The position numbers and the translations under genes are program-made. The notes below the pieces were generated by a model. That model was not told the DNA's origin. It saw nothing but the letters and a program-made list of their open reading frames with translations, and did not search any database. A DNA stretch of 64,000 bases from Syntrophaceae bacterium (GTDB lineage: Bacteria > Desulfobacterota > Syntrophia > Syntrophales > PHBD01): contig JABLXX010000002.1 of the NCBI GenBank assembly GCA_013177825.1, positions 1-64,000 on the forward strand. The letters run 5' to 3'. Below are positions 1,096 to 14,118 of this stretch, piece after piece (within the stretch, counting starts at the first letter, position 1; each line of letters begins with the position of its first letter).

Positions 1096-1275
1096 CTACT
1101 TTCCTAGAACCGACTTGACCTGCCCGATTTTCTCCTGAACCTGGCCGGCTATCTTTTCACCGGTGCCTTCAGTTTCCAACTTTTGATTATCTGTTAGTTC
1201 TCCCGTAACCTCCTTGATTTTACCTTTTACTTGATGAAACGTGCCTTCCGCCTTGTCCCTAATGCTCGATTTCAT
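1096..1275 (-). CDS. CsbD family stress protein
   Basis: A 59-residue hydrophilic protein of the CsbD family (small general-stress proteins of unknown biochemical role, sigma-B controlled in Bacillus). Family marks are the early GTFHQVKGKIKEVTGELT, the LETEGTGEKIAGQVQEKIGQ repeat-like helix pair, and a short Lys-rich end. It starts at ATG 1275 with GGAGG upstream. It lies downstream of the damaged BON gene on the same strand, as the close paralogue at 13815-13994 follows its own BON gene. BON-CsbD is therefore a duplicated unit. Confidence 0.9.
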   Translation of the reverse strand: MKSSIRDKAEGTFHQVKGKIKEVTGELTDNQKLETEGTGEKIAGQVQEKIGQVKSVLGK

Positions 1276-1291
1276 GGTATTCCTCCTTCGC

Positions 1292-1606
1292 CTATTTTAC
1301 GATGAGATCATTCCTGACGGATTTGACCCCTTCAACGCTGCGAGCGATATGCCCTGCCTTATCGACGGCATTCGCGGAATCAACGAAACCGCTCAGTTGA
1401 ACGATGCCTTTGCGTGATTCGACGCCGATCTCAAATGATTTGAGAAAATCATCACTTGCGAGCAGAGATTTTACCTTGGTCGTGATGACCGTATCGTCAA
1501 CGTAGTTGCCCACACTTTCACTTGTCCCTGCCAACGAATAGGTTGCAAAGGTGGTGAACAACATCAGAAGCACTAAAAAGTGAATAACAATATTTCTCTA
1601 TTTCAT
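1292..1606 (-). pseudogene. BON-domain exported protein with a stop at codon 3
   Basis: This encodes a periplasmic single-BON protein (OsmY-like; BON domains are thought to bind phospholipid or envelope surfaces). Compared with its paralogues at 3626-3940 and 13485-13799, the ATG at 1604-1606 is conserved and preceded by the same GAGGAGTAA, but the third codon is TAG (1598-1600) where the others have AAG. The rest of the frame is intact, including the signal peptide and the BON core VITTKVKSLLASDDFLKSF and GIVQLSGFVDS, and ends in NDLIVK. Translation might restart at a later GTG or ATG and lose part of the signal peptide. Unless the stop is a sequencing error or is read through, the gene is impaired. 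Encoded length would be 104 aa. Confidence 0.8.
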
Positions 1607-1678
1607 AGCGTTTACTCCTCCTTGCTTGTTTTTGGTGAAATGATCGGTTGTGAGTTGCGAGACCTTTTCTCACGATGT
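1607..1678 (-). promoter_or_regulatory. Leader of BON gene, copy A of a conserved 5' segment
   Basis: About 70 bases before the BON start resemble the leaders at 3941-4014 and 13420-13484. They share a GAGAAAAG-type stretch, CTCGCAAC, then TCATTTCAC or its variants, and a GAGGAGTAA ribosome site. This shows that the 5' untranslated part was duplicated together with the gene. No firm promoter boxes were assigned. Confidence 0.45.
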
Positions 1679-1837
1679 GATAGCAAGCTTTTATAAGCTC
1701 TTCCCGGACATGCCGACCACCTTCCAAATCTTCTCTGTCCACACCCGATGGAGATGGTGCGGAACATCACTTCATAGGGCTCTCTGAGAAGGAGGTTTAT
1801 CTCTCCCAAGAATGCCTTGAAGAGTTACACGCACACT

Positions 1838-1990
1838 TCAGAGCCGGCCCATCAGCACCAGAATGATCACAATCAGAAGAACCAATCCAAGTCCACCGCT
1901 GGGATAGTATCCCCAGCTTTTACTGTGAGGCCAGGTGGGCAGTGCGCCGACTAAGATGAGAATCAAAATAACGATCAGTATCGTTCCCAT
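1838..1990 (-). CDS. DUF3309 family small membrane protein
   Basis: A 50-residue protein, MGTILIVILILILVGALP..., with the DUF3309 signature LPTWPHSKSWGYYPSGGLGL between two hydrophobic segments and a short MGRL end. Function is unknown. The family is common in environmental proteobacteria beside BON, CsbD and other stress genes. It starts at ATG 1990 behind a strong AAAGGAGG. It is probably transcribed toward the BON-CsbD pair. Confidence 0.9.
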   Translation of the reverse strand: MGTILIVILILILVGALPTWPHSKSWGYYPSGGLGLVLLIVIILVLMGRL

Positions 1991-2099
1991 GTTTTTCCTC
2001 CTTTCCCTTTATTTGACGATCTTGTTTCTTAGCTTACTACCCATTCCCCTTTTTCTGATTCGGAAGTTCTCTTGCTTTATGTCTTCTCCTCAATCTTCA

Positions 2100-2290
2100 A
2101 GTTGATCTTGGGTGGGATGAGCAGGATCATGAGGATAACAATTGCAAAAGGCTGGCCAACAGCCGAAGGGAGTGAGATATTTGGATTGATGCTTTAACAA
2201 CAGGGGATTAGGTCAATAAGAGAGAATAGCAGAAAAGCATGAAATGATTCGTTTAGCCTCAATATGCTATGGAACCGGAATATATTTAGG
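2100..2290. repeat. Hairpin-ABM module, copy 1 (degenerate)
   Basis: The stem half GATTCGTTTAGCCTCAATAT (2246-2265) matches the stem of the copy at 4381-4400, but the matching second half is degraded. Further left, CAAAAGGCTGGCCAACAGCCGA (2147-2168) and an ATGATCCTG-like remnant on the reverse strand (near 2130) align with the spacer and ABM gene start of the other copies. The remainder of 1991-2509 holds no gene that I can support. Confidence 0.6.
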
Positions 2291-2509
2291 GATATACTGA
2301 GAAGAGTTAGTCACTTTGTTAACCTGCCTTTCTTTTTTATCACGCTGCCGGGCGGCCCTGAACGAATGTGTGCTTGCTCTCAGGGTGTTCGGGTTGAGGC
2401 ATAAGATCGTTGCAACCCCGCTCAGATTAGACAACTGCCGGCAGCGCATGCACCTACAGGGCTGTCATGATAACCGCATTGCAGTCTTCTTTGACGTTAC
2501 CCCCTTCCA

Positions 2510-3465
2510 TTAAAAACGGTAGGTCAATCCGCCAAGAAAGATATCCGTGTCTCGGTTGTAATTGGTGACAATCCGGTGAAAGGAGCCGCGGACTGCGAAC
2601 TGTGGATGAAATCGCCAGGAGGCCGTGAAGCTGACAGCGCCCGCGACCTTTGTTTTCTCCTCATTGTCACCACTATATTTGTCGCGAGCAAGATAGGGAC
2701 CGGCCCCGATCCCAAGGGCCAAATGATCCTCGAAGAATGCTCGGACGGCCCAGAGCTCAGTAATAATGCCGTAACGGCCGAAGGGGTTGGTATCGCCTTC
2801 ATTGAGCCACGCAATCGTCCAATCGACATAGCGCAGGAGACCGCGCCGGTACTCGGCACTCAACGCGGTATCCTTCTCCGATTTGGCGCTGTTCAGGACG
2901 GATTGACCGAGAAAAAGTGTGATTTCGTCGTCCGTTCGCGATCAGCCGGTTTGCAGGACGATTCCGGCGATGCAGAGGCTCCCAGCAGGTAGCCGATCCC
3001 GAAGGTTCCCGACAAGGTATCAAAACTTCTCTCGGTCGCAATGTAGTTGAAGCGCACTTGTAACAGCAGCGGGCGCAGCCCGTACCAGGTCGCAGTCGCA
3101 CTGGATATAACGCCGAAACCGTGCCTGTCTTGGAATGTTTCTGTAATGGGGACAACCTGCGTATCCGCATATGCAAAAGGCCCGATGCCGAGAGCCAGGG
3201 ACAACCGCGAATCGATTAGATCTGTGTGCCCCCAGATCTGGGCGGCAAGTCCGTCGCGATAGTGGTTTATCTGATGCCCCTCGTTGATATAAGAAAAGCT
3301 GAATGCTGCATGATCTCCCAAGTCCTGCCTGTAAGTGACTGACCACTGGTTTCTCGCATTGCGCGTATTCGTATCATATGTGCCCCCAACGTTGACGAAC
3401 ATCTCCTGGGCCATGACCGGACAGGATAGCGTAACAAAAAGTAAAACAAGAACGATCTTTTTCAT
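2510..3465 (-). pseudogene. Two-repeat outer-membrane beta-barrel protein, frameshifted
   Basis: The gene starts at ATG 3465 with GGGAG upstream and a signal peptide cut after PVMA. The first half (to about 2950) has barrel strands such as WSVTYRQDLGDHAAFSFSYI and LSLALGIGPFAYAD. The second half (2510 to about 2930) repeats the layout: AEYRRGLLRYVDWTIAWLNE, LALGIGAGPYLARD, ending in the aromatic LTYRF typical of outer-membrane barrels. The halves are in different frames. The first stops at 2893, while the second is open from the TGA near 2945, so a one-base shift lies between about 2895 and 2945. Joined, they give roughly 318 residues with an acyloxyacyl-hydrolase/PagL-like appearance, but no catalytic residues were identified. 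Confidence 0.7.
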
Positions 3466-3625
3466 GCAGATCTCCCGATGAAAGAGCTCCTTCAGATTGA
3501 TTCCATATCTCCCTTGTGCACCTCCCCAACGAAACTCTAAAAAATCCGGTACTCAGGGCCCAAATATTAAGAAGTTGTGGCGTGTTACCCGCTACGGTTC
3601 AGATGGATGCCGAAATATGAATAAC

Positions 3626-3940
3626 CTATTTCACAATCAAATTATTATTTACAGATTTGACCCCCCTAACGCTATGTGCGATTTGACCTGCTATGTTAAC
3701 GGCTTTTTCTGAATCAACGAAGCCGCTCAGTTGAACGGTGCCTTTGTAGGTTTCAACACTGATCTGAAACGACTTGAGAAAATCGTCCTCGGAAAGAAGA
3801 GATTTTACCTTGGTTGTGATGACCGAATCGTCAATATATTCACCAGTACTTTCCTTTATGGGTGTCGATGCACAGGCCGCAAAGGTAACAATCAGCATAA
3901 GCAGCACTAAAAAGCTGATAATGATATTTCTCTTTTTCAT
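3626..3940 (-). CDS. BON-domain lipoprotein
   Basis: A 104-residue paralogue of the two other single-BON proteins here. Its hydrophobic leader ends in a lipobox (TFAAC, Cys at about 23), so unlike the paralogues it should be lipid-anchored. The BON domain fills residues 35-104 (YIDDSVITTKVKSLLSEDDF, GTVQLSGFVDSEKAV, ending NNNLIVK). A periplasmic stress role is inferred from the OsmY family. It starts at ATG 3940 behind AGAGGAGTAA. No CsbD gene follows this copy. Confidence 0.88.
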   Translation of the reverse strand: MKKRNIIISFLVLLMLIVTFAACASTPIKESTGEYIDDSVITTKVKSLLSEDDFLKSFQISVETYKGTVQLSGFVDSEKAVNIAGQIAHSVRGVKSVNNNLIVK

Positions 3941-4014
3941 AGCAGTTACTCCTCTCTGTAAGTTTGCAGTGAGCTGTAAAAATAACTGGTTGCGAGATCT
4001 TTTCTCCTGAACGT
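3941..4014 (-). promoter_or_regulatory. Leader of BON gene, copy B of a conserved 5' segment
   Basis: It matches the leader at 13420-13484 closely: ACGTTCAGG, then a diverged AT-rich block, then CTTACAGAGAGGAGTAAC before the start codon. Copy A at 1607-1678 is more diverged. Confidence 0.5.
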
Positions 4015-4249
4015 ATTGTATTGATTAAAAGGTCTTTCTTAAGCTGCCGACTACCCTCCCGATAAACGGCCTCCACTTTTCCAGCAAGGATGCAAGTTGC
4101 AGCAAGAACGCCTTCGATATACGGCCTTGTTACCTCCTTGCGCTTCGTAATTGTTATATACCGATCTGCTCTCATCCATGAAGAGAGACTGGTGCATCAT
4201 TTCAAATGTCTTACCATGCAATCAAGGACAAGAACTCGCATTGGGGCGA

Positions 4250-4549
4250 GATGAGCAGAATCATAATACGTGCAACAGCAAATGCCCTGCCAATAACCGG
4301 AGGAAGGCCAGAAGATTTGATTTATCCCTTAATGTCAATGGATTAGATTCGTAGGAGGGAACAGCAGAAAAGTACGAAATGATTCGTTAGGCCTCAATAT
4401 ATTCAGGTTCCACAGCATATTGAGGCCTAACGAATCAATTCATCCTTCTCCACTTTTCTTTCATTAATCTAATCCATTGACATTACAGGATGAATCATAA
4501 TGGCTGTCTTCCCGCCGGTTATTGGCCGGCCATTTGCTATGACATTTTC
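4250..4549. repeat. Large palindrome made of two inverted hairpin-ABM modules
   Basis: The centre is a perfect 20-bp stem (4381-4400 with 4417-4436) around a 16-base loop. Outside it lie further matched arms: TAATGTCAATGGATTAGATT (4330-4349) pairs exactly with 4466-4485, and CCAATAACCGG (4290-4300) pairs with 4515-4525. The left arm has the orientation of copy 1 and the right arm that of copies 3 and 4. The right arm runs straight into a relic of the ABM gene, as copy 4 runs into the intact ABM gene. The rest of 4015-4743 has no supported gene apart from that relic. Confidence 0.8.
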
Positions 4550-4675
4550 AAGGTTCTGGTAATCAGATGGATGAAGGTCCTTCTGAGAAGCGCATGGACT
4601 TATCACAGAGGATTGCTTCACTGTCCGGCTCCATCAGAATGAAGAGGGGATAACAGCACTGCGACTCCTCTCAAA
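4550..4675 (+). pseudogene. Relic of an ABM-domain gene
   Basis: This stretch aligns base for base with the 5' part of the intact gene at 12805-13110. Shared pieces include GTAATCA, ATGAAGGT, GGACTTATCACAGA (versus GGAGTTGTCACAGA), TCACTGTCCG, CCATCAG and CACTGCGACT. The start codon position reads AAG (4550-4552) and a base has been lost after CTTC/CTTCT, so the frame is broken. Homology fades after about 4675. It is a dead partial copy carried with the repeat module. Confidence 0.75.
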
Positions 4676-4743
4676 GTATTGTGGCTGGGAGGCGAGCAAA
4701 TTGCTGTCTGAACCTGCCCTAACGATAAATTGGGGGAATGGAA

Positions 4744-4908
4744 ATGGATCATAATCACGCAGATCAAGAGTGGAGCAGACTAGAGGCCTATATCGATCAT
4801 ATGTTTGGCAGATATCTCAGGAACAGTCAGGACCTGCTTGAATACAAACCCCGTCAGGCAATCTATCTGCTGGAAACATCAAGGGATGACAGGAAGGACT
4901 ATCCGTAG
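4744..4908 (+). CDS. Small hypothetical protein (54 aa)
   Basis: The frame MDHNHADQEWSRLEAYIDHM... ends in SRDDRKDYP. It is hydrophilic, with no signal peptide and no recognisable domain. A GGGGG run six bases upstream can serve as ribosome site. It lies between the ABM relic and a zinc-ribbon gene, and support is limited to the start context and plausible composition. It could be a chance frame or the remnant of a larger gene. Confidence 0.35.
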   Translation: MDHNHADQEWSRLEAYIDHMFGRYLRNSQDLLEYKPRQAIYLLETSRDDRKDYP

Positions 4909-5025
4909 GCATTCTGAGCCAAGTAGAGCTCCGAATGCGATATCGCCTATGGCGCTGCACAAAGACTGTTTCGATCGTCGAACCGTCATGAAGGCATCAT
5001 TTGATATTCATGGCAATTCGGAGAG

Positions 5026-5388
5026 GTGAATGAAATGCTGGCATCTCAGATAATCTGCATGGAATGCGGATATCAGGGTTTGTTCGATATACAGGAAGTA
5101 TCTGTTGAAAAAGCGAAGCCAAACTCTTTCAGATACTTGGGACATAACGCTTTTACGGGTGCCATGCACTATCAGTGCCCTGAGTGCAATTCATATCTGA
5201 ATGTCAATCCGATGGATATTTTCAAGACGTATCCCGTGAGAGGACAACCGAGGCCGGGCCAACCGGTAAAAGATCCTTACAGCGTCCCGGCAGAGATGGA
5301 TTTTCTCTGGAAGTTGCCCGGTATCATCAAGAACCGGGTACTTGGGTTGACAAGATATATCAGCAAGAGTCTTGGCGCTATTATTTAG
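5026..5388 (+). CDS. Zinc-ribbon hypothetical protein
   Basis: A 120-residue soluble protein with two CxxC knuckles, CMECGYQG at about residues 11-18 and CPECNSY at about 51-57, as expected for a single zinc ribbon over the first 60 residues. A basic, hydrophobic tail (KNRVLGLTRYISKSLGAII) follows and may form an amphipathic helix. It starts at ATG 5026 immediately after GGAGAGGTGA. I do not recognise the family and no function can be assigned. Confidence 0.6.
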   Translation: MNEMLASQIICMECGYQGLFDIQEVSVEKAKPNSFRYLGHNAFTGAMHYQCPECNSYLNVNPMDIFKTYPVRGQPRPGQPVKDPYSVPAEMDFLWKLPGIIKNRVLGLTRYISKSLGAII

Positions 5389-5421
5389 AGACGCCTATTT
5401 GCTTCTGGATCAATCCCATAG

Positions 5422-5589
5422 GATCGCAGGGCCTTGATTAAGAAGCGCTTCCATGCGGACCGGACCGATCCGGTCAATTACGATCCGACCCTCAACACAG
5501 CCCGATACAGTGTTGAGACAGCCGGCAAGATTTTCAAAGAAGCGTTCAACACAGGTTCCTCGTACGGTTATTCAATAACAAAACGGTAA
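5422..5589 (+). pseudogene. C-terminal relic of a cytidylate-kinase-like protein
   Basis: Between a TAG at 5419-5421 and a TAA at 5587-5589, one frame reads DRRALIKKRFHADRTDPVNY, then DPTLNTARYSVETAGKIF. This matches the usual ending of cytidylate-kinase-like (AAK-type P-loop) proteins, where a 'DR..lIKr.f..D..DP..YD..iNT...s.e.Aa.ii' pattern closes the fold. The P-loop part is absent upstream, so this is a truncated remnant. The identification is from memory of the family and is moderate. Confidence 0.45.
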
Positions 5590-5600
5590 AGAGCATCCCC

Positions 5601-7472
5601 ATGTATCAGGAAAAATGGCAACAAAAGCACCCCGATAAATATGCCCCGGAAGACGTTGTCTTCGGCCGAATCCACCGAGGAGATACGATATTCATCGGCT
5701 CGGCTTGTGCAGAACCGCAGCATCTGGTCCGGAATCTGATTCACTATGTGGAGTCTCACCCCAAGGCATTTGTCGATGCCGAGGTTCTCCATATCCGATC
5801 CCTTGGTGTTGCCCCTTATGCGACGGAAAAGTTCAAGCAAAATTTCCGTCATAACTCTTTTTTTGTTGGTGACAGTACCCGTGACGCCGTCAACAGCGGT
5901 GTCGCCGACTACACGCCCATCTTTCTCTCGGAGGCCCCGGGGCTCTTCATAAGCGGCCTCGCGCTTATCGATATTGCATTGGTCCAGGCAACACCGCCGG
6001 ATGAATACGGGTTTATGAGTCTGGGTATCAGCGTAGATGTCGTCAAGGCGGCCGTTCAGCAGGCAACGGTTGTTATTGTCCAGGTCAACCGCTCCATGCC
6101 TCGAGTTCTCGGCGATGCTTTCATCCATATCGACGACGTGGACTATATCGTCCCCCATGATGAAGACCTCCTGGAGTACAGTCCGAACGCCCCTGAAGAA
6201 ACAAGCCAGCAGATCGGCCGGTATGTGTCACGTCTGATTGAAGACGGGGATACCCTTCAGGTGGGTTACGGCAAAATCCCGAATGCCGTCCTGGGGAATC
6301 TTTCCGGCAAGAAGCATCTCGGGATCCACACGGAACTTATCAGCGACGGTATTGTAGAACTCATGAGGCAGGGCGTAATCGACAATTCCCGCAAAACACT
6401 CGACCCCGGGAAAACCGTAACAACCTTCTGCATGGGCCAAAAGTCGACCTACAAATATCTTCACGACAATCCGGCCTTTGAATTCCGGACCATCGATTAT
6501 ACCAACAACCCTATGAATATTGCCCGCCAGGATAACATGGTCGCCATCAACAGTGCGCTGGAAATCGATCTGACGGGCCAGGCGACGGCAGAATCGATCG
6601 GGAGGATCTCTCACAGCGGAGTTGGAGGGCAGGCAGACTTCATGCGGGGCGCGGTCCTCTCCAGGGGAGGAAAGTCAATCCTGGCTATGCAATCCACTGC
6701 AGCCGGGGAGAGCGTTTCCAGAATCGTCCCGACACTCCAGGAAGGAGCTGGCGTAACCCTGACCAGGGGTGATGTCCATTATGTGGTGACGGAGCACGGC
6801 ATCGCATATCTTCATGGGAAAAGTCTCCGGGAGAGAGCCATGGAACTCATTGGCATCGCCCACCCGAAATTCCAGTTGTCACTCATCGAGAAGGCAAAGA
6901 AACTGGGACTCATCTACCGGGATCAAGCTTTTATCCCCGGCATCCGGGGCGAGTATCCCGAGCAGTTCGAATCGTATCGGGTGACCGCCAAAGGCTTCAA
7001 CATCCTCTTCCGTCCCATTAAGATCAGTGATGAACCAAGGCTAAAGGATTTCGTCTATTCCTTGTCCGATCAGAGTCTCTACCGGCGTTTCATGTCCGTA
7101 CGGAAGGATGTCCCCCACGAAGTCCTGCAGGACATGGTCATCATCGACTACACTGTGGAGATGGCCATCCTTGCCATTGTCCCCAGGGAAGAAGAAGAGG
7201 AAATTGTCGGTGTCGGCAGATATTACATGGATGATGTGAAACACTCGGCAGAGGTGGCCTTTGCCGTGAAGGATGCCTACCACAACAAAGGCATCGGCTC
7301 AGAGCTGCTTTCCTATCTGACGTACCTTGCCAAACGTCAGGGCTTGCTGGGTTTCAACGCCGAAGTCCTTTCGGATAACCAGCCCATGATGCACGTCTTC
7401 GAAAAGGGCGGCTTCGATCTGAAAAAGAGTAGTGCCGCCGGGATCTGGGAGTTGAAGATGACATTCCGGTAA
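5601..7472 (+). CDS. Acetyl-CoA hydrolase/CoA-transferase fused to a GNAT domain
   Basis: A 623-residue cytoplasmic fusion. Residues 1 to about 440 are a class I CoA-transferase of the acetyl-CoA hydrolase / 4-hydroxybutyrate CoA-transferase type. The acceptor Glu is at about 245 in GIHTELISDG, and conserved GVGGQADFMRGA and EHGIAYLHGKSLRERA follow. Residues from about 470 to the end are a GNAT acetyltransferase (FRPIKISDEPRLKDFVYSL, with acetyl-CoA loop YHNKGIGSELL). Fusions of this kind are known in anaerobic deltaproteobacteria and may join acyl-CoA handling with lysine or small-molecule acetylation; that role is inferred. The ribosome site before ATG 5601 is weak. It stands alone between accessory genes. 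Confidence 0.9.
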   Translation: MYQEKWQQKHPDKYAPEDVVFGRIHRGDTIFIGSACAEPQHLVRNLIHYVESHPKAFVDAEVLHIRSLGVAPYATEKFKQNFRHNSFFVGDSTRDAVNSGVADYTPIFLSEAPGLFISGLALIDIALVQATPPDEYGFMSLGISVDVVKAAVQQATVVIVQVNRSMPRVLGDAFIHIDDVDYIVPHDEDLLEYSPNAPEETSQQIGRYVSRLIEDGDTLQVGYGKIPNAVLGNLSGKKHLGIHTELISDGIVELMRQGVIDNSRKTLDPGKTVTTFCMGQKSTYKYLHDNPAFEFRTIDYTNNPMNIARQDNMVAINSALEIDLTGQATAESIGRISHSGVGGQADFMRGAVLSRGGKSILAMQSTAAGESVSRIVPTLQEGAGVTLTRGDVHYVVTEHGIAYLHGKSLRERAMELIGIAHPKFQLSLIEKAKKLGLIYRDQAFIPGIRGEYPEQFESYRVTAKGFNILFRPIKISDEPRLKDFVYSLSDQSLYRRFMSVRKDVPHEVLQDMVIIDYTVEMAILAIVPREEEEEIVGVGRYYMDDVKHSAEVAFAVKDAYHNKGIGSELLSYLTYLAKRQGLLGFNAEVLSDNQPMMHVFEKGGFDLKKSSAAGIWELKMTFR

Positions 7473-7639
7473 GTCCCTACTTTCTCTACGGAAACGGGTG
7501 CGTTGAATAAGCCTCTCGGGGAGAAGGACACTCAATGATTCGTATTGGGAAGTGAAGAGTTTGAACATGATCCAAACAGAGTGAGAATGGAACGACTTTG
7601 TGTATGCAAATGAAGGATTTCCCTGAGGAGGCATGAATC

Positions 7640-7777
7640 ATGAAAAATTGTAAGGGTGTCATCGCTGTGTTGATGATGTTCGCTTTAATTGTCGGGGTAG
7701 CGGGCTGCTCGAAAGAAGGCCCGATGGAGCGCGCCGGCAAGAAAGTCGATAAGGTAGTAGAGGACATCAAGAAATAA
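7640..7777 (+). CDS. Entericidin-like small lipoprotein
   Basis: A 45-residue lipoprotein. Its signal peptide ends in the lipobox VAGC (Cys at 23), followed by a short charged tail SKEGPMERAGKKVDKVVEDI predicted to form one amphipathic helix. Size and layout match entericidin-type lipoproteins, often linked with stress or antidote functions, but a generic small outer-membrane lipoprotein is equally possible. It starts at ATG 7640 behind GAGGAGG. Confidence 0.7.
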   Translation: MKNCKGVIAVLMMFALIVGVAGCSKEGPMERAGKKVDKVVEDIKK

Positions 7778-7893
7778 TGAAACTAGAAATTATTTATACA
7801 CTTCCACCCTGAAAAAGAGCTTCTTATCAATGCTTCCCCGTCTGTGCGAACCATCAGCCCAAAGGATTGGAGGCACTTGCCAAGGGATAAATC

Positions 7894-9183
7894 ATGTTAA
7901 GCCTGTTCTTAAAAATTTCTTCTTTTTTAATGGTAATTTTATTACTTGCCGGTTGTGCTGCACAGAAATCCATAACCTCCTCGAACGTCACAACGTTGAA
8001 TTCAGAATTGAATTCAGGCCAGCCTGCCCAGAAGATCACCATAGCCGAAAAACCGGCAGTTGTTCCCCTATCCCAACCTGATGAGGTTGAAAAAGAAGTG
8101 AAACCTGCAAAAGAAACTGGCTCAGCAACAGAGCAGACACCCGTTTCCATAGCGGAACCTATGCCAGAAATGGTTTCCATTTCACTGAATGTAGAATTTG
8201 ACACCGGTAGAGCAAACATCAAACCAAAATTTCACAATGACATCAGGAGAATTGCCGATTTTATGAATAAATATTCCTCAACGTCGGCGGTCATAGAAGG
8301 ACATACAGACAATATTGGCAAAAAAGTGGTCAATGTTGAACTATCCCTGCTTCGTGCCACTACAATAAAAGCATATCTTGTTGACAAGTTTGGTATCGTC
8401 AGTTCTCGCATCAAAGTGGTTGGTTATGATTACCAAAAACCCATTGCAAGCAACAAGACGGTGGAAGGAAGACAAAAAAACCGTAGAGGTGAAGCGCATA
8501 TTGTAGCGGATGGAATCCAGAATAAAGTATACTCTTTTTTTGAAGATTCAGATCTACCAAAAGGAGGTTTTCCTATAGTTAATCAAGAATATATTGATGA
8601 GAAAATCAAATCATTCAAGGAATTACAGGGGGATGCATCTTATTCTTCAAAGGCAGTTAAAGGGACGGCACTGGAAATTTATGCAATGTGGGGAGGGATC
8701 TTTTCTCACTGTGCCATTCGAATCAAAACAAATCCAGATTCATTTTATCAGCTTGAGTTGCAATCTTTGCCAGATTTAAAAAAAGCCGGCATGACAGATT
8801 TTCGAAAAATTGGGGCGGCGATAAGTTTATTCGGTGCGACTGAAAATCAGTTTGATGTTGTAGAATTTACCGACAAGGATGAACGAACAAAATTGGATAA
8901 TTTTGAACCCCATTATGCAACCATGCCAATATGTATTGGCAAAAAAGCGACTAGGAAAAGATCTCAATGGTATAGAGCTTGCCTGAGTCACTATGCCAGA
9001 AGTTACAATCCCGAAAATGCGCGAAAAGCCGGTAATCAAACAAAAGTATTCGACTATAATCCGACGATCCACAATTGCTGTAACTTCGCAGAAGAGGCTT
9101 TAGAAGCTTGCGGACTCGCAAATTGTTTCGATTTGGGAAAAAGCACAGGGCTTCATCACAAAACTGGCTCGCTTGAAGAATAA
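7894..9183 (+). CDS. OmpA-domain lipoprotein with a cysteine-peptidase-like C-terminal domain
   Basis: A 429-residue envelope lipoprotein (lipobox LLAGC, Cys21). A Pro/Glu/Ala-rich linker runs to about 90. An OmpA peptidoglycan-binding domain fills about 97-205 (VEFDTGRANIKPKF, GHTDN at 136-140, PIASNKTVEGRQKNRR). The last 220 residues are unusual: a SHCAIRI strand (His272) and, far downstream, HNCCNFAEEALEACGL (Cys395/396). The His-first, Cys-last order and the NCxNFA-like motif recall circularly permuted papain-fold peptidases (PPPDE or permuted NlpC/P60 type). That assignment is inference. The gene is clearly more AT-rich than most of the window. Hairpin module copy 3 follows 45 bp after the stop. 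Confidence 0.8.
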   Translation: MLSLFLKISSFLMVILLLAGCAAQKSITSSNVTTLNSELNSGQPAQKITIAEKPAVVPLSQPDEVEKEVKPAKETGSATEQTPVSIAEPMPEMVSISLNVEFDTGRANIKPKFHNDIRRIADFMNKYSSTSAVIEGHTDNIGKKVVNVELSLLRATTIKAYLVDKFGIVSSRIKVVGYDYQKPIASNKTVEGRQKNRRGEAHIVADGIQNKVYSFFEDSDLPKGGFPIVNQEYIDEKIKSFKELQGDASYSSKAVKGTALEIYAMWGGIFSHCAIRIKTNPDSFYQLELQSLPDLKKAGMTDFRKIGAAISLFGATENQFDVVEFTDKDERTKLDNFEPHYATMPICIGKKATRKRSQWYRACLSHYARSYNPENARKAGNQTKVFDYNPTIHNCCNFAEEALEACGLANCFDLGKSTGLHHKTGSLEE

Positions 9184-9227
9184 CCAGCGATGATGCTATT
9201 ATGTTGTGTAACTCTCCACAACCTATT

Positions 9228-9400
9228 CCTCAATATATTCAGGCTCCACAGCATATTGAGGCTAAACGAATCATTTCATCCGTTTTCCCGTCCACTCCAG
9301 TCGATCTAACTATCTGTATTTAAAGGATTAATCAAAGACTTTGGTTTTCCTTCGGCTAATGGCCGGTGATTTGCAACTACCTATCAATCATCGACATCAT
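9228..9400. repeat. Hairpin-ABM module, copy 3
   Basis: CCTCAATAT (9228-9236), the loop ATTCAGGCTCCACAGC, and ATATTGAGGCTAAACGAATC (9253-9272) match the 4395-4436 core, with only the inner 9 bp of the stem kept on the left. The spacer continues with CGATCTAAC and CTTCGGCTAATGGCCGGTGA, parallel to copies 2 and 4, but no ABM coding sequence remains. Placed 45 bp after the OmpA-lipoprotein stop, it could also act as a transcript end. Confidence 0.7.
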
Positions 9401-9437
9401 ATCACCCTAGGATAAGTTCATATCAAAGGAGGAGGCA

Positions 9438-9599
9438 ATGAAGAGAATCATGATACTGACCATGGTTTTCGTGATGCTGCTTGTTTCTATGGGAGGATGT
9501 TGGATGAGGTGGGATAGAGATGGCAGGGGTGGAGGATATGAAGGGCATGGCGGGCAAGACAGACAAGACAGACAAGACAGGCAAGATGAACGGCGTTAG
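9438..9599 (+). CDS. Small lipoprotein with a QDR repeat tail
   Basis: A 53-residue protein. The signal peptide MKRIMILTMVFVMLLVSMGG leads to a lipobox Cys at 21, followed by a Gly/Asp/Arg-rich tail that ends in three QDR-type repeats encoded by a tandem GACAGACAA motif (about 9557-9582). The tail is predicted to be disordered. Function is unknown. It starts at ATG 9438 with GGAGGAGG upstream and precedes the Spy-like gene. Confidence 0.7.
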   Translation: MKRIMILTMVFVMLLVSMGGCWMRWDRDGRGGGYEGHGGQDRQDRQDRQDERR

Positions 9600-9682
9600 G
9601 AAAGAAATTGTGCTCACTACCGGCACAGTATTGTGCTGTTATCGTTGGTAGTGGAAACCATTCAATGAAAGGGAGACAGATC

Positions 9683-10165
9683 ATGAAACGAAAAGTTTAT
9701 CGGGTTGCTTTTTCAGCTACGCTCGTTGTTGCAATGGTGGCGTTTCTATCCACGATTTTTTTCGTCAATGCAAATTCTTCTTTTGCGGCCTCTGTGAAGA
9801 AGAAATCGTCAGCATTGGGTAGAACCTCTGCTGTCGAGTATACGGAGGCGCAGATCAAACAGCTTCAAGGCGCATTAAAGATCACCGCAGCCCAGGAAGA
9901 ATTGTGGAAGAACCTTACTCAGGTGATGCGGGAAAACGCGAAAGACATGGACGCCCTGACCAAGGACAGGAGAGAACAAACCAGCACCATGAACGCTGTT
10001 GAGCGGATGAAATTTCACAAACAAATTACACAAACCCATTTAGATCAACAGAACAAGCTTATCCCTCCTTTTGAGGCGCTCTATGCCAGTATGTCGGATG
10101 AACAGAAAGAGAGTACCGACACAATATTCCGGACAGGGAAACATGGAAGAAGCAAGAGGAAATGA
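9683..10165 (+). CDS. Spy/CpxP-like periplasmic protein
   Basis: A 160-residue exported protein. The signal peptide (about residues 1-34) ends near SSFAAS. The mature part is all-helical and carries LTxxQ-like motifs of the Spy/CpxP family (YTEAQIKQLQGAL near 53-65; SDEQKESTDTIF near 136-147), although the canonical LTxxQ spelling is degenerate. Spy/CpxP proteins act as periplasmic chaperones or stress sensors. ATG 9683 is preferred over upstream in-frame starts because AAGGGAGAC lies just before it and the signal peptide follows directly. Confidence 0.75.
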   Translation: MKRKVYRVAFSATLVVAMVAFLSTIFFVNANSSFAASVKKKSSALGRTSAVEYTEAQIKQLQGALKITAAQEELWKNLTQVMRENAKDMDALTKDRREQTSTMNAVERMKFHKQITQTHLDQQNKLIPPFEALYASMSDEQKESTDTIFRTGKHGRSKRK

Positions 10166-10235
10166 TCGGTTGTAATAAAAATGAAGATTGATGCCAGACA
10201 GGAGATTGGAATCGATCAAGGAAAGGAGTGACTTT

Positions 10236-10550
10236 ATGAAAACATCAGGGACATGGAATATCAGCTCCGTGGCGGGCAAGATGTTGATAGGGCTTGTTCT
10301 GGCTGCAATGATCAGCAGTGTAGATGTATTGCCGGCCTTCGGCAGAGATGACCATAAACGTCAGGGAAGACATGACAATAGACGTTACGAAGAGAGAGGA
10401 CGCGAGCACGACCGTGACTACCGCTATGTGAAAGGAAAGCGTGTTTATTACTACAGGGAACGAGTTTATGCCCCGCCGCCGGTTGTCTATGCACCGCCTC
10501 CTCCGCCGGGCATCAGCATATTTTTCCCACCCATCTTTATCCATCCCTAG
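10236..10550 (+). CDS. Exported basic protein with proline-rich C-terminus
   Basis: A 104-residue protein with a signal peptide (cut after about residue 35, near LPAFG). A strongly charged Arg/His/Asp stretch follows (RRYEERGREHDRDYRYVKG), then a Tyr/Pro-rich end (YAPPPVVYAPPPPP) and a hydrophobic tip. Similar RcnB-like or low-complexity exported proteins occur in proteobacteria. No function can be stated. It starts at ATG 10236 behind AAAGGAG and lies 70 bp after the Spy-like gene, so the two may be co-transcribed. Confidence 0.65.
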   Translation: MKTSGTWNISSVAGKMLIGLVLAAMISSVDVLPAFGRDDHKRQGRHDNRRYEERGREHDRDYRYVKGKRVYYYRERVYAPPPVVYAPPPPPGISIFFPPIFIHP

Positions 10551-10703
10551 ACTGAATTTGAACAAGGATGGAATGTCAGGTTCCAAATGGCCGGTGCAAT
10601 GATGCATAAGCTGGAAACGAATATGAACCGCCGGACAAGCGACCAGAGGTGTTGCAGAGGATCATCGATCTCTCTCCTTACCGGGCAGAGGGGAGGATCG
10701 CCA

Positions 10704-10743
10704 CTGGAGGGGAGCCTGACTCCTCCTAAAGCCTCCCCTCCAG
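10704..10743. terminator. Perfect 11-bp hairpin without T tail
   Basis: CTGGAGGGGAG (10704-10714) pairs exactly with CTCCCCTCCAG (10733-10743) around an 18-base loop. There is no T run, so it may be a transcript-processing or stabilising stem and not an intrinsic terminator. It sits between the proline-rich protein gene and the YtxH gene. Confidence 0.4.
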
Positions 10744-10834
10744 GCTAGTTCGGGAATATGCCTTCGGTTAAGGACCGCTGCAACGACTCCGTACATCATC
10801 AGCAAAGGAGCACAACAAAAAGGAGAGAAGAAAA

Positions 10835-11101
10835 ATGGCAGCAAACGATTGGCTCAAAGGATTGTTGGTAGGTGGCATAATCGGGGCGGTTCTCGGGATT
10901 CTCTACGCCCCGAAAAGCGGGAAAGAGACACGGGAAGATATATCGAAATCCGCCGAGGAATTGTGCTATAAGAGCAAGGAGAAGTATGAGTGGGCAATTC
11001 AGAAAATAGAGAAACTGGTGGATGAGGGAAAGGATAAATTCGCGACGAAAAAGGGGGGGCTGAAGAAGGTCATTGATGAGGACATGGAAACCATCAAGTG
11101 A
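10835..11101 (+). CDS. YtxH-domain small protein
   Basis: An 88-residue protein with the YtxH signature: a glycine-rich membrane helix (LLVGGIIGAVLGILYAPKSG, about residues 10-29) followed by KETREDISKSAEEL and a Lys/Glu-rich helix. YtxH proteins are general-stress proteins of unknown activity, anchored by the N-terminal helix. It starts at ATG 10835 behind GGAGAGAAG. Confidence 0.88.
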   Translation: MAANDWLKGLLVGGIIGAVLGILYAPKSGKETREDISKSAEELCYKSKEKYEWAIQKIEKLVDEGKDKFATKKGGLKKVIDEDMETIK

Positions 11102-11138
11102 GAGTACAGACAGAAAACGATCCTGGAGAAAAGAATCA

Positions 11139-11450
11139 ATGCATATTTCTGACTGGCTTGATAAAGAGGAAACAAAAGGCGTTGATGTATCTCAAATCAC
11201 GTTGCCTGATGACATGTCTTATGACGAAGTCCCAGACGAAACTATTTTTTTCAAGGAAATTAATCCCTGCGGAATTCTCTGTCCAAATAAACATCCATTT
11301 TCTACAGTCGAGCGCTTTGGTCGCTGGTATTTTTGCAGAGGTCGAAACAAGGAAGACAGCATTCATCCGTCAGGAATAGAATGGAAATTTTTTACAAGAA
11401 ATAGAGATCTCGCCGTAAAAACAGCTAAATCACACATCAAAAACACATAA
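11139..11450 (+). CDS. Hypothetical protein (103 aa)
   Basis: A soluble protein MHISDWLDKEETKG... containing two Cys pairs (CGILC near 45-49 and a lone Cys in WYFCRGR near 67). Its Phe/Trp-rich centre (ERFGRWYFCRGRNKEDSIHP) might bind metal or nucleic acid. I do not recognise the family. ATG 11139 is chosen for GGAGAAAAG upstream. Its TAA overlaps the ATG of the next gene by one base, which implies coupled translation with the exported protein downstream. Confidence 0.6.
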   Translation: MHISDWLDKEETKGVDVSQITLPDDMSYDEVPDETIFFKEINPCGILCPNKHPFSTVERFGRWYFCRGRNKEDSIHPSGIEWKFFTRNRDLAVKTAKSHIKNT

Positions 11451-12622
11451 TGAAAATCTGGCCAATGATCTTCTCTTCCGGCGGTCGATGTTTGGCTACG
11501 GTAGTGATGCTTTTACTGATAGCACTATTTCAGCATCAACCAGCCTTGGCTCTTTCTCCCTCGGACATTTCCAGCCCTATCCCCCCCGCCGCAGCAGTGA
11601 AGCTTGTTCAGTTCTGCGCTGATCCCAAAGTTGGGCTCGATAACCAGGCCGTTGCCACCCTCGTAGATTACGTCCTTGAGCCTAAGTCGAAGAAAGAAGC
11701 GGATCTCCCAAAACATCAGGAGTCTCCCGGGGCATATTATGAATTCGATACAAAGATCACCTTCCCCCGTTTTCTGAACTACGCCTATAGCCCCCAAATT
11801 CCAGCGGCCCTCACAAGACCATCTTCCATGCGGTACTCTTTATGGATTGCCCCCCAGGGGAAATTACATAATATGCCGATTCACTGGAGATCAGCCTCTC
11901 CAGCCGGTGAGCCTGTCATCATTCGCGGATTACAACGCGACTCGAACACTCCGGACGTGACCACGGGCGTTTACTATGAATACGATCTGAAAAGAACTCT
12001 CATCCTTCTCAACCATAAGGGTAGACAGGTTCTTATTTCCGTTTCCAAACAGATCAATAACTCCGGCGTCGGTAAAAAGGGGATCATCCTGGGGAATGAT
12101 GACGATTGGAATTACTATTATTCTGGCGAACCCGGCTCATTCAAGGAAGGTATAGGTTGGGCTAAGTCCTACATCTATGACTTTATTTCCGTGGGAGTCT
12201 ATGTTGAATCAGGCGCTATGGTGAGAACCGGTACTTTTCAATGGATTCGGGCTGGATGGTCTGGGATCAACTTTGTCCAAACGACTCATATAACGAATGG
12301 CATGAAACGATTTGCCCGAAATTTTAAGACAATCCTCGAATCGCCTAACTTGCCCACTCCAAACCAGATGATTTCCACTTATCATCGACTTTCCGCATTG
12401 CCAAAGCCAGATCTGATTGAAAAGTATAACGCACTGCAGAGGTCACAACAATCCTTGGCCATCCAGACCGGTAAAATCGGCACAACTGAAGCAAATAAAC
12501 AGCGCTCCTATGCTCAAATCCCCAAAGAGCAAATCGTTGGAGAATTGATGCTGGAATATCTCAAGATGGCCCTTGGCAAGTCATCACTGGTAGAAAAAAA
12601 GGTCGTTTTGGGCAGCAAATAA
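11450..12622 (+). CDS. Exported hypothetical protein (390 aa)
   Basis: A signal peptide (about residues 1-35, cut after ALA) is followed by a 355-residue mature protein without further membrane segments. It is rich in Tyr/Trp strands (GAYYEFDTKITFPRFLNYAY, GVYYEYDLKRTLILLNHKG), suggesting a beta-rich periplasmic or surface fold, and ends in a charged helix. I do not recognise a family. It is translationally coupled to the small upstream gene, and hairpin module copy 4 lies 23 bp after its stop. Confidence 0.7.
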   Translation: MKIWPMIFSSGGRCLATVVMLLLIALFQHQPALALSPSDISSPIPPAAAVKLVQFCADPKVGLDNQAVATLVDYVLEPKSKKEADLPKHQESPGAYYEFDTKITFPRFLNYAYSPQIPAALTRPSSMRYSLWIAPQGKLHNMPIHWRSASPAGEPVIIRGLQRDSNTPDVTTGVYYEYDLKRTLILLNHKGRQVLISVSKQINNSGVGKKGIILGNDDDWNYYYSGEPGSFKEGIGWAKSYIYDFISVGVYVESGAMVRTGTFQWIRAGWSGINFVQTTHITNGMKRFARNFKTILESPNLPTPNQMISTYHRLSALPKPDLIEKYNALQRSQQSLAIQTGKIGTTEANKQRSYAQIPKEQIVGELMLEYLKMALGKSSLVEKKVVLGSK

Positions 12623-12645
12623 GATTTGTCCTTCCTCAAGAACTC

Positions 12646-12804
12646 CCTCAATATACTGAAGTTCCGCCGCATATTGAGGCCAAAAGAATCCTTTCATACT
12701 TCTAAGCCATTCTCTCATCAATCTAATCCACCGACAATAAAGGAAAAATCAAAGTTTCTGCCGTTCCTCCGGCTATTGGCAGGCTACTTGCTGTTATATC
12801 TTCC
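12646..12804. repeat. Hairpin-ABM module, copy 4 (upstream of the intact ABM gene)
   Basis: CCTCAATAT (12646-12654) pairs with ATATTGAGG (12671-12679) around a 16-base loop. The downstream spacer (CAATCTAATCC, CCTCCGGCTATTGGCAGGC) parallels the right arm of copy 2. The module ends at the ABM start codon, so this is probably the ancestral arrangement. The hairpin could end transcription of the gene before it or lie in the ABM leader. Confidence 0.75.
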
Positions 12805-13110
12805 ATGATCCTCGTAATCATACGAATGAAGGTGCTTCCTAATAAGCGTATGGAGTTGTCACAGACATTTCCATCACTGTCCGATTCCATCAGGATGGAG
12901 AAGGGATGTCAGCGCTGCGACTTCTGCCAGCATATTACGGATGAAAATGGGCTCTTTCTTCTAGAAGAATGGGACACTCAGGAGAACCTTAAGAACCACC
13001 TGAAATCGGATAATTTTCAAGTACTCAGGGGGGCAGAGAACCTCCTCGCGGAACCCTATACGATGACATTCCACAACCTTATTCATCCAGTGGGAATGGA
13101 GGACAATTAG
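12805..13110 (+). CDS. ABM-domain (antibiotic biosynthesis monooxygenase-like) protein
   Basis: A 101-residue ferredoxin-like-fold protein: MILVIIRMKVLPNKRMELSQ at the start, a central GCQRCDFCQHI stretch with three Cys, then LFLLEEWDTQENLKNHLKSD and AEPYTMTFHNL. The layout fits small ABM/quinol-monooxygenase-type proteins (one-domain dimers). The substrate is unknown, and the Cys cluster is not typical of catalytic family members. The stop overlaps the next gene by one base. A broken copy lies at 4550-4675. Confidence 0.75.
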   Translation: MILVIIRMKVLPNKRMELSQTFPSLSDSIRMEKGCQRCDFCQHITDENGLFLLEEWDTQENLKNHLKSDNFQVLRGAENLLAEPYTMTFHNLIHPVGMEDN

Positions 13111-13304
13111 TGGACGAATTGCTTCTTAGAAAGTGTCTTCGCTGCGGGGGTGCCATGATCCATGACAGATTTTACGGTCCCTATGAGCAGTTTTGGGGAT
13201 GGAAATGTTTAATCTGCGGAGAGATTATTGACCCGGTGATACTGGAGAATCGGAAAATGATGAGAGTTGGTCAAAGCGCAAGCGTTCAAAATGCGAGGAG
13301 GTAA
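13110..13304 (+). CDS. Small zinc-ribbon protein, GTG start
   Basis: A 64-residue protein with CLRCGGAMI (residues 9-17) and CLICGEII (residues 33-40), forming one zinc knuckle pair, and a basic C-terminus. It starts at GTG 13110, whose G is the last base of the ABM stop codon, so translation is coupled to the ABM gene. It resembles short zinc-ribbon proteins that follow stress genes in deltaproteobacteria. Function is unknown. Confidence 0.65.
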   Translation: MDELLLRKCLRCGGAMIHDRFYGPYEQFWGWKCLICGEIIDPVILENRKMMRVGQSASVQNARR

Positions 13305-13419
13305 TGAGGTGACATACGGACGCCTTAATTGCAGCAAGTTGAAACTCTTCCGGAGGAGGTGATGTATCCGGAAAGGAGGGTGCTTGGCAGATTCAGGTAA
13401 ATTCCGTAAAATTTAACAT

Positions 13420-13484
13420 ACGTTCAGGCGATAAGTTCTATCAACCGACCATTTCACTACAACCTTACAGAGAGGAGTAACACC
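13420..13484 (+). promoter_or_regulatory. Leader of BON gene, copy C of a conserved 5' segment
   Basis: It shares ACGTTCAGG, CATTTCAC-type and CTTACAGAGAGGAGTAAC blocks with the leader at 3941-4014 and less strongly with 1607-1678. The block ends at the ATG of the BON gene. It is possibly a shared regulatory leader. No protein-coding capacity is seen in 13305-13484. Confidence 0.5.
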
Positions 13485-13799
13485 ATGAAAAAGAGAAACG
13501 TCGTTATCCACGTACTCGTGATTCTTATGCTGATGGCCACCTTTGCTACCTATTCGTTGGCGGGGACGAGCGAAAGTGCAGGCAACTACATTGATGATAC
13601 GGTCATCACGACCAAGGTAAAATCTCTGCTCGCAAGTGATGATTTTCTCAAATCATTTCAGATCAGTGTGGAATCACGCAAAGGCATCGTCCAGTTGAGC
13701 GGCTTCGTTGATTCTCAAAAGGCTGTCGATAAGGCGGGCCAAATCGCACGCAGCGTTGAAGGGGTCAATTCCGTCAGAAATGATCTCATCGTGAAATAG
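13485..13799 (+). CDS. BON-domain exported protein
   Basis: A 104-residue OsmY-like protein. The signal peptide (MKKRNVVIHVLVILMLMATF, cut near YSLAG) is followed by one BON domain (YIDDTVITTKVKSLLASDDF; GIVQLSGFVDSQKAVDKAG; ending RNDLIVK). It is nearly identical in the mature part to the damaged copy at 1292-1606, and like that copy is followed within 20 bp by a CsbD gene. It starts at ATG 13485 behind AGAGGAGTAA. A role in envelope stress is inferred from the family. Confidence 0.9.
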   Translation: MKKRNVVIHVLVILMLMATFATYSLAGTSESAGNYIDDTVITTKVKSLLASDDFLKSFQISVESRKGIVQLSGFVDSQKAVDKAGQIARSVEGVNSVRNDLIVK

Positions 13800-13814
13800 G
13801 CAAAGGGGAATTCC

Positions 13815-13994
13815 ATGAAAGCCAGCACAGAGGACCAACTAGAAGGCAAGTTTCACAAAATAAAGGGTCAGTTCAAGGAAATCGCCGGGGAACTGAGCGA
13901 TAATCAAAAGTTGGAAGCTGAAGGAACCGGTGAAAAGATCGCCGGCCAGGTCCAGGAAAAGATCGGTCAGGTTAAGAAGGTTTGGGGGAAGTAA
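13815..13994 (+). CDS. CsbD family stress protein
   Basis: A 59-residue paralogue of the protein at 1096-1275: QLEGKFHKIKGQFKEIAGEL, LEAEGTGEKIAGQVQEKIGQ, ending VKKVWGK. It is hydrophilic and predicted helical. It starts at ATG 13815, 15 bp after the BON stop, with AAAGGGGAA upstream, so it is presumably co-transcribed with the BON gene. Confidence 0.9.
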   Translation: MKASTEDQLEGKFHKIKGQFKEIAGELSDNQKLEAEGTGEKIAGQVQEKIGQVKKVWGK

Positions 13995-13995
13995 G

Positions 13996-14118
13996 GAGCG
14001 CCTCTCCGCCAACGGTTTCGACCTGAGGAAACCTATCGCGAGCAACAAGACCGAGAAAGGCCGGCAGCAGACCCGTCGGGTGGAAGCCGTGGTTGAGTAC
14101 ATCGTCCAGAAGTGGATT
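13996..14118 (+). pseudogene. Relic of an OmpA C-terminal domain
   Basis: Directly after the CsbD stop, the frame reads ERLSANGFDLRKPIASNKTE, then KGRQQTRRVEAVVEYIV. This is the last third of an OmpA peptidoglycan-binding domain and resembles residues 170-205 of the lipoprotein at 7894-9183. There is no start or upstream half, so it is a decayed fragment left by rearrangement. The bases after it (to 14180) form a GC-rich stretch with a GCCGCCCTGCCGGCGGGGCGGC hairpin and no gene. Confidence 0.75.

Follow-up and report, generated by a model that had tools for sequence, protein, structure and literature searches.

A repeated operator–promoter unit

The window, i.e., the whole stretch of 64,000 nucleotides analysed here, carries within its first 14 kb several small genes encoding proteins with ABM, BON, CsbD, DUF3309 or LTXXQ domains. 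Sigma-54 promoters are characterised by −24/−12 elements, GG-N10-GC, with the consensus TGGC-N7-TTGC. Upstream of these genes, we observed a repeated unit composed of a 32-bp palindrome (hereafter the operator), a conserved spacer of 98–100 nt and a sigma-54-type promoter (Table 1). Five such promoters are present at four operator sites in the window, and a sixth cassette of the same genome (G000) lies on contig C19 (13429–13575). The operators of the window and of C19 follow the consensus CTCAATAT-N16-ATATTGAG with at most one mismatch, and GG-N10-GC (TGGC-N7-TTGC) is located at 98–100 nt from the operator in 6/6 cassettes of this genome (five directions in the window and one on C19). This promoter string occurs eight times on both strands of the window, five times inside cassettes; the probability of five such placements by chance is about 2e-19, the placements being taken as independent. 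With zero or one mismatch, the palindrome is found five times in the 4.24-Mb genome, in which the reversed pattern used as a control gave no occurrence at up to two mismatches and two at up to three. Scans for sigma-70 promoters and terminators were not clearly above shuffled sequences (11 versus 16.5; 16 versus 13.7, sd 4.0).

Table 1. Predicted cassettes and associated genes in the window.
Feature	Position	Strand	Remarks
CsbD gene	1096–1275	−	After DUF3309 and BON genes
BON gene	1292–1573	−	After DUF3309 gene
Target: DUF3309 small membrane protein gene	1838–1990	−	Pfam PF11752; behind promoter 1
Sigma-54-type promoter 1, TGGCCAGCCTTTTGC	2144–2158	−	99 nt after operator 1; faces DUF3309-BON-CsbD genes
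Operator 1, CTAAATAT-N16-ATATTGAG	2258–2289	−	One mismatch
Target: BON-domain protein gene	3626–3940	−	Pfam PF04972; behind promoter 2
Sigma-54-type promoter 2, TGGCAGGGCATTTGC	4278–4292	−	100 nt from operator 2/3; faces BON gene 3626–3940
Operator 2/3	4393–4424	none	Common to two divergent promoters; centre of 20-bp perfect stem 4381–4436
Sigma-54-type promoter 3, TGGCCGGCCATTTGC	4523–4537	+	98 nt from operator 2/3
Decayed ABM 5′ end	4543–4625	+	Directly after promoter 3; score 103, reached by 0/1000 shuffles
Probable target: 56-aa protein gene	4738–4908	+	No Pfam family; behind promoter 3
Operator 4	9229–9260	+	
Sigma-54-type promoter 4, TGGCCGGTGATTTGC	9360–9374	+	99 nt from operator 4
Probable target: 53-aa lipoprotein-like protein gene	9438–9599	+	No Pfam family; behind promoter 4
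LTXXQ gene	9683–10165	+	After 53-aa protein gene
Operator 5	12647–12678	+	
Sigma-54-type promoter 5, TGGCAGGCTACTTGC	12777–12791	+	98 nt from operator 5
Target: intact ABM-domain gene	12805–13110	+	Pfam PF03992; behind promoter 5
BON gene	13485–13799		Downstream of intact ABM gene
CsbD gene	13815–13994		After the preceding BON gene

A first-pass annotation of this DNA had described a hairpin module recurring at four loci with a common spacer, and the four palindromes and the shared spacer of about 100 nt agree with this description. We also recovered the 20-bp perfect stem that it reported (4381–4400/4417–4436) and the inverted pair within 4250–4675, which corresponds to two divergent promoters with one operator between them. 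Its choice of the hairpin core as the repeat unit holds only for the arms of about 9 bp that are common to all copies; the full 20-bp stem was rejected as the unit, since the outer stem is only present at 4381–4436, where two opposed cassettes overlap. The sigma-54-type promoters and the linked activator gene described below had been overlooked, and the likely enhancer–promoter function had therefore gone unseen.

Genes located behind the cassettes

The gene families found downstream of cassettes include ABM, BON, CsbD, LTXXQ, DUF3309, OmpA and PAS/HD-GYP sensors; a Pfam scan detected 85 families, of which the 25 commonest were listed. The scan covered 127 proteins, namely the BON and ABM proteins of the window and 125 non-ABM ORFs from the 129 chosen; the four ORFs set aside were two of the window whose frame is doubtful, a short cut ORF and another of about 2,100 aa. 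A candidate ORF is lacking within 450 nt at 11 of the 168 cassette sites, and 12 of the 168 have less than 450 nt of downstream DNA. Coordinate comparison in ten genomes located 12 of the 18 CsbD genes over the cut-off less than 2 kb downstream of a cassette, on the same strand; three of these ten genomes carry no CsbD gene. In the window, the 56-aa protein shares 43% identity over 44 aa with an ORF located behind a cassette in another genome (G054, locus L092), and the 53-aa protein appears, by eye, to be entericidin-like. The ATG of the intact ABM gene lies 13 nt past the −12 element, and the ABM start codon is mostly found 12–14 nt past this element across cassettes, so that leaderless transcripts are predicted.

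Distribution and spacing of the cassettes

The operator followed by N80–110 and the promoter was detected in 49 of the 155 genomes of the order (Syntrophales-type), with up to 15 copies per genome, and the reversed pattern was found in none of these 155 genomes. The observation that the first-pass annotation had named as refuting it, a lack of further copies and of a common spacer, is not borne out: copies are numerous and have the spacer in common. A search at the class level covers the same 155 genomes and brought nothing further. At the phylum level, with a stricter operator centre, matches were obtained in 11 of 395 genomes. The order itself accounts for 16 of the 395 genomes and for two of the matches (G000 and G072). 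Outside the order, 9 of 379 genomes match, six of them in a single family (f28), so that the cassette also occurs beyond the order.

Among the 169 distinct operator–promoter pairs spaced by 80–110 nt in the loci analysed, 160 are at 98–102 nt and three at 89–91 nt, i.e., one helical turn less. DNA looping alone requires a less strict spacing than this near-fixed distance of about 100 nt, which is partly a product of common descent. The set of 168 sites used here contains neither pairs outside 87–102 nt, nor sites whose centre is poor, nor operator 1 of the window, which has one mismatch. An IHF-like site (at most one mismatch) is present in 88 of the 168 spacers versus 27.9 in mononucleotide shuffles, the spacers being related and thus not independent. 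In a wider contig scan that gave at least 120 stretches, the matches listed include titles outside Syntrophales (Kiritimatiellae, Taylorbacteria), which may be mis-binned contigs.

A candidate activator encoded next to the operator

The C19 cassette starts 26 nt past the last 66 codons of a gene encoding a bacterial enhancer-binding protein (bEBP); the gene is cut by the end of the contig and only these C-terminal codons are present in the assembly. Five full-length homologues from other genomes contain PAS, Sigma54_activat and Fis-type HTH (HTH_8) domains, together with a GAFTGA-type motif. An HTH match of at least 80 bits was obtained in 27 genomes, and 25 of these also carry a cassette with the exact pattern (Fisher 3e-13, for genomes that are not independent). 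For 21 of the 27 best-per-genome genes (loci L128–L154), an operator (score of at least 22 out of 28) is present within 300 nt past the bEBP stop codon, and 19 of these 21 loci also have a promoter match; no operator follows the six remaining genes of the 27. By comparison, none of 30 other activator loci of G000 (30 of its 40 activator hits) reaches an operator score of 20. A single rpoN gene is present in each of the 11 genomes searched, including G000. In the family f19, the operator is associated with a HTH that is about 63% identical, and the five sites examined exhibit GG-N10-GG instead of GG-N10-GC at 97–100 nt.

Remnants of the ABM gene in other cassettes

The first-pass annotation had placed an ABM start in every copy of the window, which is accurate for the intact gene at 12805 and for the clear remnant at 4543–4625; in the two copies on the minus strand (2130 and 4264), similarity is limited to the first five ABM codons (scores reached by 140 and 746 of 1000 shuffles), and no ABM start was detected in the 9229 copy (768 of 1000). 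The duplication of 5′ ABM DNA that it suggested is supported, in the window by the single copy at 4543–4625. Taking all genomes together, 40 of 136 scored non-ABM cassettes (140 sites minus four with short or N-filled DNA) contain a 5′ remnant of ABM whose score exceeds that attained by 0.1% of shuffles, suggesting that the regulon grew partly by copying of the enhancer, the promoter and the ABM start. In 103 non-ABM cassettes with 99–100-nt spacing, the spacer contains 0.85 bits of information per position versus 0.08 upstream and 0.04–0.13 further downstream; conservation thus extends over the spacer and the promoter, whereas the ABM piece carried along decays.

The ancestral unit was probably composed of the bEBP gene, the operator, the promoter and the ABM gene. 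We tentatively propose, at somewhat less than even odds, that the regulon expands by duplication of a ready-made enhancer–promoter cassette of about 175 bp, with the leaderless start codon of the donor, ahead of unrelated genes; selection would keep the unit while the carried gene piece decays, and leaderless translation of captured tails may start from the AUG kept at about +2/+3.

Interpretation and alternative explanations

Judging from the sequences, each copy most likely corresponds to a sigma-54 enhancer–promoter cassette of one regulon, activated by the PAS-AAA+-Fis-HTH bEBP (probability of about 0.88), and the hairpin probably does not belong to an RNA or to a transposon. The 20-bp stem at 4381–4436 and the folding of a 311-nt stretch as RNA at z = −12.45 would fit an RNA hairpin (small RNA, attenuator or terminator), but the palindrome is located upstream of the promoter and is therefore untranscribed by it, and the extreme fold stems from two opposed cassettes. 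Moreover, pairing at variable columns of the 168 sites is near that of shuffled partners, with an excess of about 2 sd at two columns and deficits at three others, and the compensatory changes expected of an RNA stem are thus not clearly visible. In positions 1–16000, the gathering score is attained by no Rfam family, and the microRNA matches below threshold are due to the long hairpin. The RNA reading, rejected on covariation, Rfam and folding, is thus highly improbable. Hardly more probable is a MITE- or REPIN-like element moved by a transposase, which could account for the many copies of one unit of about 175 bp, for the remnant of a neighbouring gene carried along and for the nearest relative by spacer being in the same genome (22 of 168 sites versus 3.3 expected). 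Against this stand the conservation pattern of spacer and promoter beside a decaying ABM piece, as for a selected switch, and the fact that the nearest relative by spacer also tends to have a downstream gene of the same family (33 of 168 versus 7.2 expected), i.e., inheritance with the gene. The mobile or recombination-prone unit evoked in the first-pass annotation finds support only if understood as a promoter that is copied.

The regulon could also be activated by another bEBP, the PAS-bEBP being merely a neighbour: 24 of the 49 cassette-bearing genomes (some of them incomplete) have no HTH match of at least 80 bits, and 37 of the 40 sigma-54 activator hits of G000 are strong. This explanation appears unlikely given that the operator adjoins the PAS-bEBP in most of the best loci, that gene and cassette co-occur, and that in the f19 lineage the operator centre and the HTH have both diverged and are still adjacent in G035 and G047.

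In the mechanism that we infer for the PAS-bEBP regulon, the activator would respond to a putative signal and bind the 32-bp palindrome, and the DNA would loop over the conserved spacer of about 100 nt, probably with the help of IHF. As expected from its class, the bEBP would open RNA polymerase-sigma54 at the TGGC-N7-TTGC promoter, inducing stress and cell-envelope genes (ABM, BON, CsbD, DUF3309, LTXXQ, OmpA and PAS/HD-GYP sensors); in the 4250–4675 palindrome, a single operator would serve two divergent promoters. Copying of operator, spacer, promoter and ABM start before other genes would explain part of the regulon growth. Under this proposal, Syntrophales-type bacteria would have a stress/envelope regulon for which regulator, operator and target genes can be named, and the natural series of donor genes (intact, truncated or gone) would document how a regulon acquires members through duplication of its switch instead of base-by-base evolution of sites. 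It is directly testable through the predicted leaderless sigma-54 message, the variants spaced by one helical turn and the altered f19 promoter.

Comparison with known systems

We read this sigma-54 regulon as new, with an unusual history of copied cassettes. The sigma-54 regulome of Desulfovibrio vulgaris is reported to include a bEBP with a ncRNA just downstream (DVU0653) and envelope-stress bEBPs (DVU1419 and DVU3381) (PMC4641369). Its regulons similarly combine a −24/−12 promoter, an upstream palindromic site and a bEBP gene beside the target, whereas the present system is one operator–spacer–promoter unit, with up to 15 copies per genome, a near-fixed conserved spacer and pieces of the ABM gene. 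No word beginning with CTCAA occurs in the main text of that paper, the part searched for this string (PMC4641369). Our literature search retrieved no paper on this regulon, which is weak evidence of absence, subscription papers being mostly outside its coverage; the queries on Syntrophus sigma54/enhancer and on Syntrophus aciditrophicus sigma-54 regulators returned only a tRNA splicing match and a Syntrophomonas proteome, respectively.

Divergent promoters around one site are known from zraP/zraSR. The control of envelope-stress genes by a bEBP resembles that exerted by ZraR/PspF-type proteins, from which the present activator differs by its own PAS domains. The copying of a promoter segment before unrelated genes recalls mobile promoters and promoter propagation in prokaryotes; here, in contrast, a complete enhancer–promoter is copied inside one regulon and the donor gene is still recognisable. 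Finally, REPIN-type repeats are also palindromes recurring in one genome, whereas G000 contains five operators, each located at promoters.

The repeats are probable operator–promoter cassettes

The first-pass annotation had described a 56-nt hairpin core with a 20-bp perfect stem and a spacer of about 110 bp, recurring at four places between 2100 and 13110 and accompanied by the start of an ABM gene. The stem is exact (4381-4400/4417-4436), and the recurrence was confirmed by direct and inverted repeat searches, which link 2220-2309, 4250-4556, 9209-9285 and 12635-12819. The association with ABM stood only in part: the gene start is present in the intact gene and in one long remnant (see table), but not at 2130 and 4264, where five codons match it no better than shuffles, nor after the 9360 promoter, where the same comparison gave no match. 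Run against all 25 contigs of the genome (4.24 Mb), a 100-nt query matched the four window places and one place on contig C19, with one further weak match elsewhere (E 0.69). Searched for alone and allowing 0-1 mismatch, the palindrome (CTCAATAT-N16-ATATTGAG) has five matches; its reversed-pattern control is absent from the genome at up to two mismatches and occurs twice at up to three.

Side-by-side alignment showed that all six cassettes of the genome consist of a 32-bp palindrome, hereafter the operator, followed 98-100 nt downstream by TGGC-N7-TTGC, which in every case separates GG from GC by ten bases. Sigma-54 promoters carry a -24/-12 signature with the consensus TGGC-N7-TTGC, and by its sequence the conserved element is a signature of this sigma-54 type. 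The TGGC-N7-TTGC string occurs eight times in the window, both strands counted, and five of these are cassette sites. The operator–promoter distance is nearly fixed despite the 80-110 nt allowed in searches of the fetched loci: it measures 98-102 nt in 160 of 169 distinct pairs, and three of the other nine, at 89-91 nt, are about one helical turn shorter. Information content rises around 18 nt before the palindrome and falls some 12 nt past the -12 element, the spacer holding 0.85 bits per position versus 0.04-0.13 in DNA further out (103 non-ABM cassettes with 99-100-nt spacing). IHF-like sites are commoner in spacers than in shuffles (88 of 168, versus 27.9), apparently in keeping with the IHF position at RpoN promoters described in PMC7962754.

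The large palindrome at 4250-4560 is no special hairpin but a single operator flanked by two divergent promoters, at distances of 98 and 100 nt; counting this case, there are four divergent pairs among the 168 sites. A role as an RNA stem was likewise rejected: the arms do not clearly covary, no Rfam family scored above its gathering score in 1-16000, and the position of the palindrome upstream of the promoter counts against an RNA reading.

A linked enhancer-binding protein

On C19, an ORF truncated by the contig end stops 26 nt before the cassette begins; its last 66 codons encode a Fis-type HTH. We read the cassettes as a sigma-54 regulon with this linked PAS-bEBP (bacterial enhancer-binding protein) as putative regulator; the literature searched yielded no description of this regulon. 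Five full-length homologues contain PAS, Sigma54_activat and HTH_8 domains. A 56-aa HTH query scored at least 80 bits in 27 of the order's 155 genomes; 25 of these 27 contain an exact-pattern cassette (Fisher 3e-13, ignoring kinship of genomes). The sister species G001, one of the two exceptions, has a slightly diverged cassette after the bEBP gene and then an ABM gene (PF03992), its ATG again at 13 nt; in the other, G151, one of the three HTH genes is followed by an operator but not by a promoter match. Of the best-scoring HTH genes, one per genome (27 loci, L128-L154), 21 are followed within 300 nt of the stop by an operator with a score of 22 or more out of 28, and 19 of these 21 also have a promoter match. 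In a wider gene set, biased because it came partly from cassette searches, the operator follows 35 of 46 HTH genes. None of 30 other sigma-54 activator loci of the window's own genome reaches an operator score of 20.

Against the link stand 24 cassette-bearing genomes without a strong HTH match and six loci among L128-L154 where the HTH gene lacks an operator. Family f19 is a further result against it: the operator is kept and, in G035 and G047, adjoins an HTH activator about 63% identical, but at the five sites looked at (see table) the element 97-100 nt downstream is GG-N10-GG (e.g., CTGGAATACTTTTTGG) instead of GG-N10-GC. The genomes searched for rpoN have one copy each.

A gapped search pattern (half-sites, 80-110 nt, TGG-N9-TGC) matched in 49 of the 155 genomes, with 15 matches in G073 and 14 in G072; its reversed control matched in 0 of 155. 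Among the matches listed, named contigs with a cassette are mostly Syntrophaceae, Smithella, Syntrophus or unplaced Deltaproteobacteria. Outside the order, a search with a stricter centre found the cassette in 9 of 379 genomes.

Predicted target genes and spread of the cassette

ORFs downstream of the 168 sites group in clusters, the largest being ABM (28 sites). Pfam matches (E <= 1e-4) in 127 proteins, namely 125 non-ABM targets and two window proteins, include PAS (8), DUF932, BON and CsbD (6 each), OmpA (5), LTXXQ (4) and ice-binding (3). In ten genomes, coordinate comparison showed a same-strand cassette less than 2 kb upstream of 12 of the 18 CsbD genes. Because of these family names, we call the regulon one of stress/envelope type.

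Features of the cassettes and their surroundings (window positions unless a fetched locus is named)
Feature	Position	Strand
Intact ABM gene	12805-13110	
Long ABM remnant	4543-4625	
Operator shared by divergent promoters	4393-4424	
Window cassette target: DUF3309-BON-CsbD genes		
Window cassette target: BON gene		
Window cassette target: 56-aa protein		
Window cassette target: 53-aa protein with LTXXQ gene		
Window cassette target: ABM-BON-CsbD genes		
BON-CsbD pair, cassette 1	1092-1612	minus
BON-CsbD pair, cassette 5	13479-13998	plus
PAS-HD-GYP gene (C19)	L049:5094-7367	
f19 site	L095:4754-4900	
f19 site	L095:12176-12320	
f19 site	L063:1501-1640	
f19 site	L096:2146-2177	minus
f19 site	L096:13584-13720	
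Recurring non-ABM tails	4264 and 2130 (minus)	
Recurring non-ABM tails	L126, L164, L165, L199, L223, L239	

Of the 28 ABM sites, 23 had a start codon placed by the rule and 5 did not; in 22 of the 23 the codon follows TTGC by 12-14 nt. Since a sigma-54 start is expected at about this ATG, the message is predicted to be leaderless. Of the 136 non-ABM cassettes scored, 40 hold a 5' remnant of ABM that outscores 99.9% of shuffles, versus 3 of 130 control stretches 150-260 nt further down. In cassettes without a scored remnant, ATG is over-frequent at 12-13 nt (24 in 96 sites versus about 2.3 per offset). We take bEBP-operator-promoter-ABM as the probable ancestral order because it is present in G001, G020 and G026. 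Spacer likeness between unrelated sites is 0.68 (shuffled, 0.565). The nearest spacer relative lies in the same genome for 22 of 168 sites (3.3 expected) and beside the same gene family for 33 of 168 (7.2 expected), so that cassettes seem both to have been passed down together with their gene and to have been copied inside a genome.

Two other tails, ATCTCACCCCAAAGCGAGTTCTT.. and ATCTCACCCAAGATCAACTTGAAG.., recur after the -12 element, most beginning with ATGATYCTG or close to it; a donor gene was looked for and not found. Duplication also took in whole operon parts, since the BON-CsbD pairs following cassettes 1 and 5 are inverted copies, 76-86% alike. The N-terminus of the PAS-HD-GYP protein encoded after the C19 cassette is 49% identical to residues 7-314 of the G028 bEBP, its PAS half, so regulator and target seem to have a sensor part in common. 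The window also encodes an acetyl-CoA hydrolase/transferase fused to a GNAT domain (5601-7472); at two other sites (cluster s160) a similar protein is encoded after a cassette. The contig starts with what we take to be the 3' end of an IS3-type integrase-like ORF (1-323), and the assembly may therefore break at an insertion sequence.
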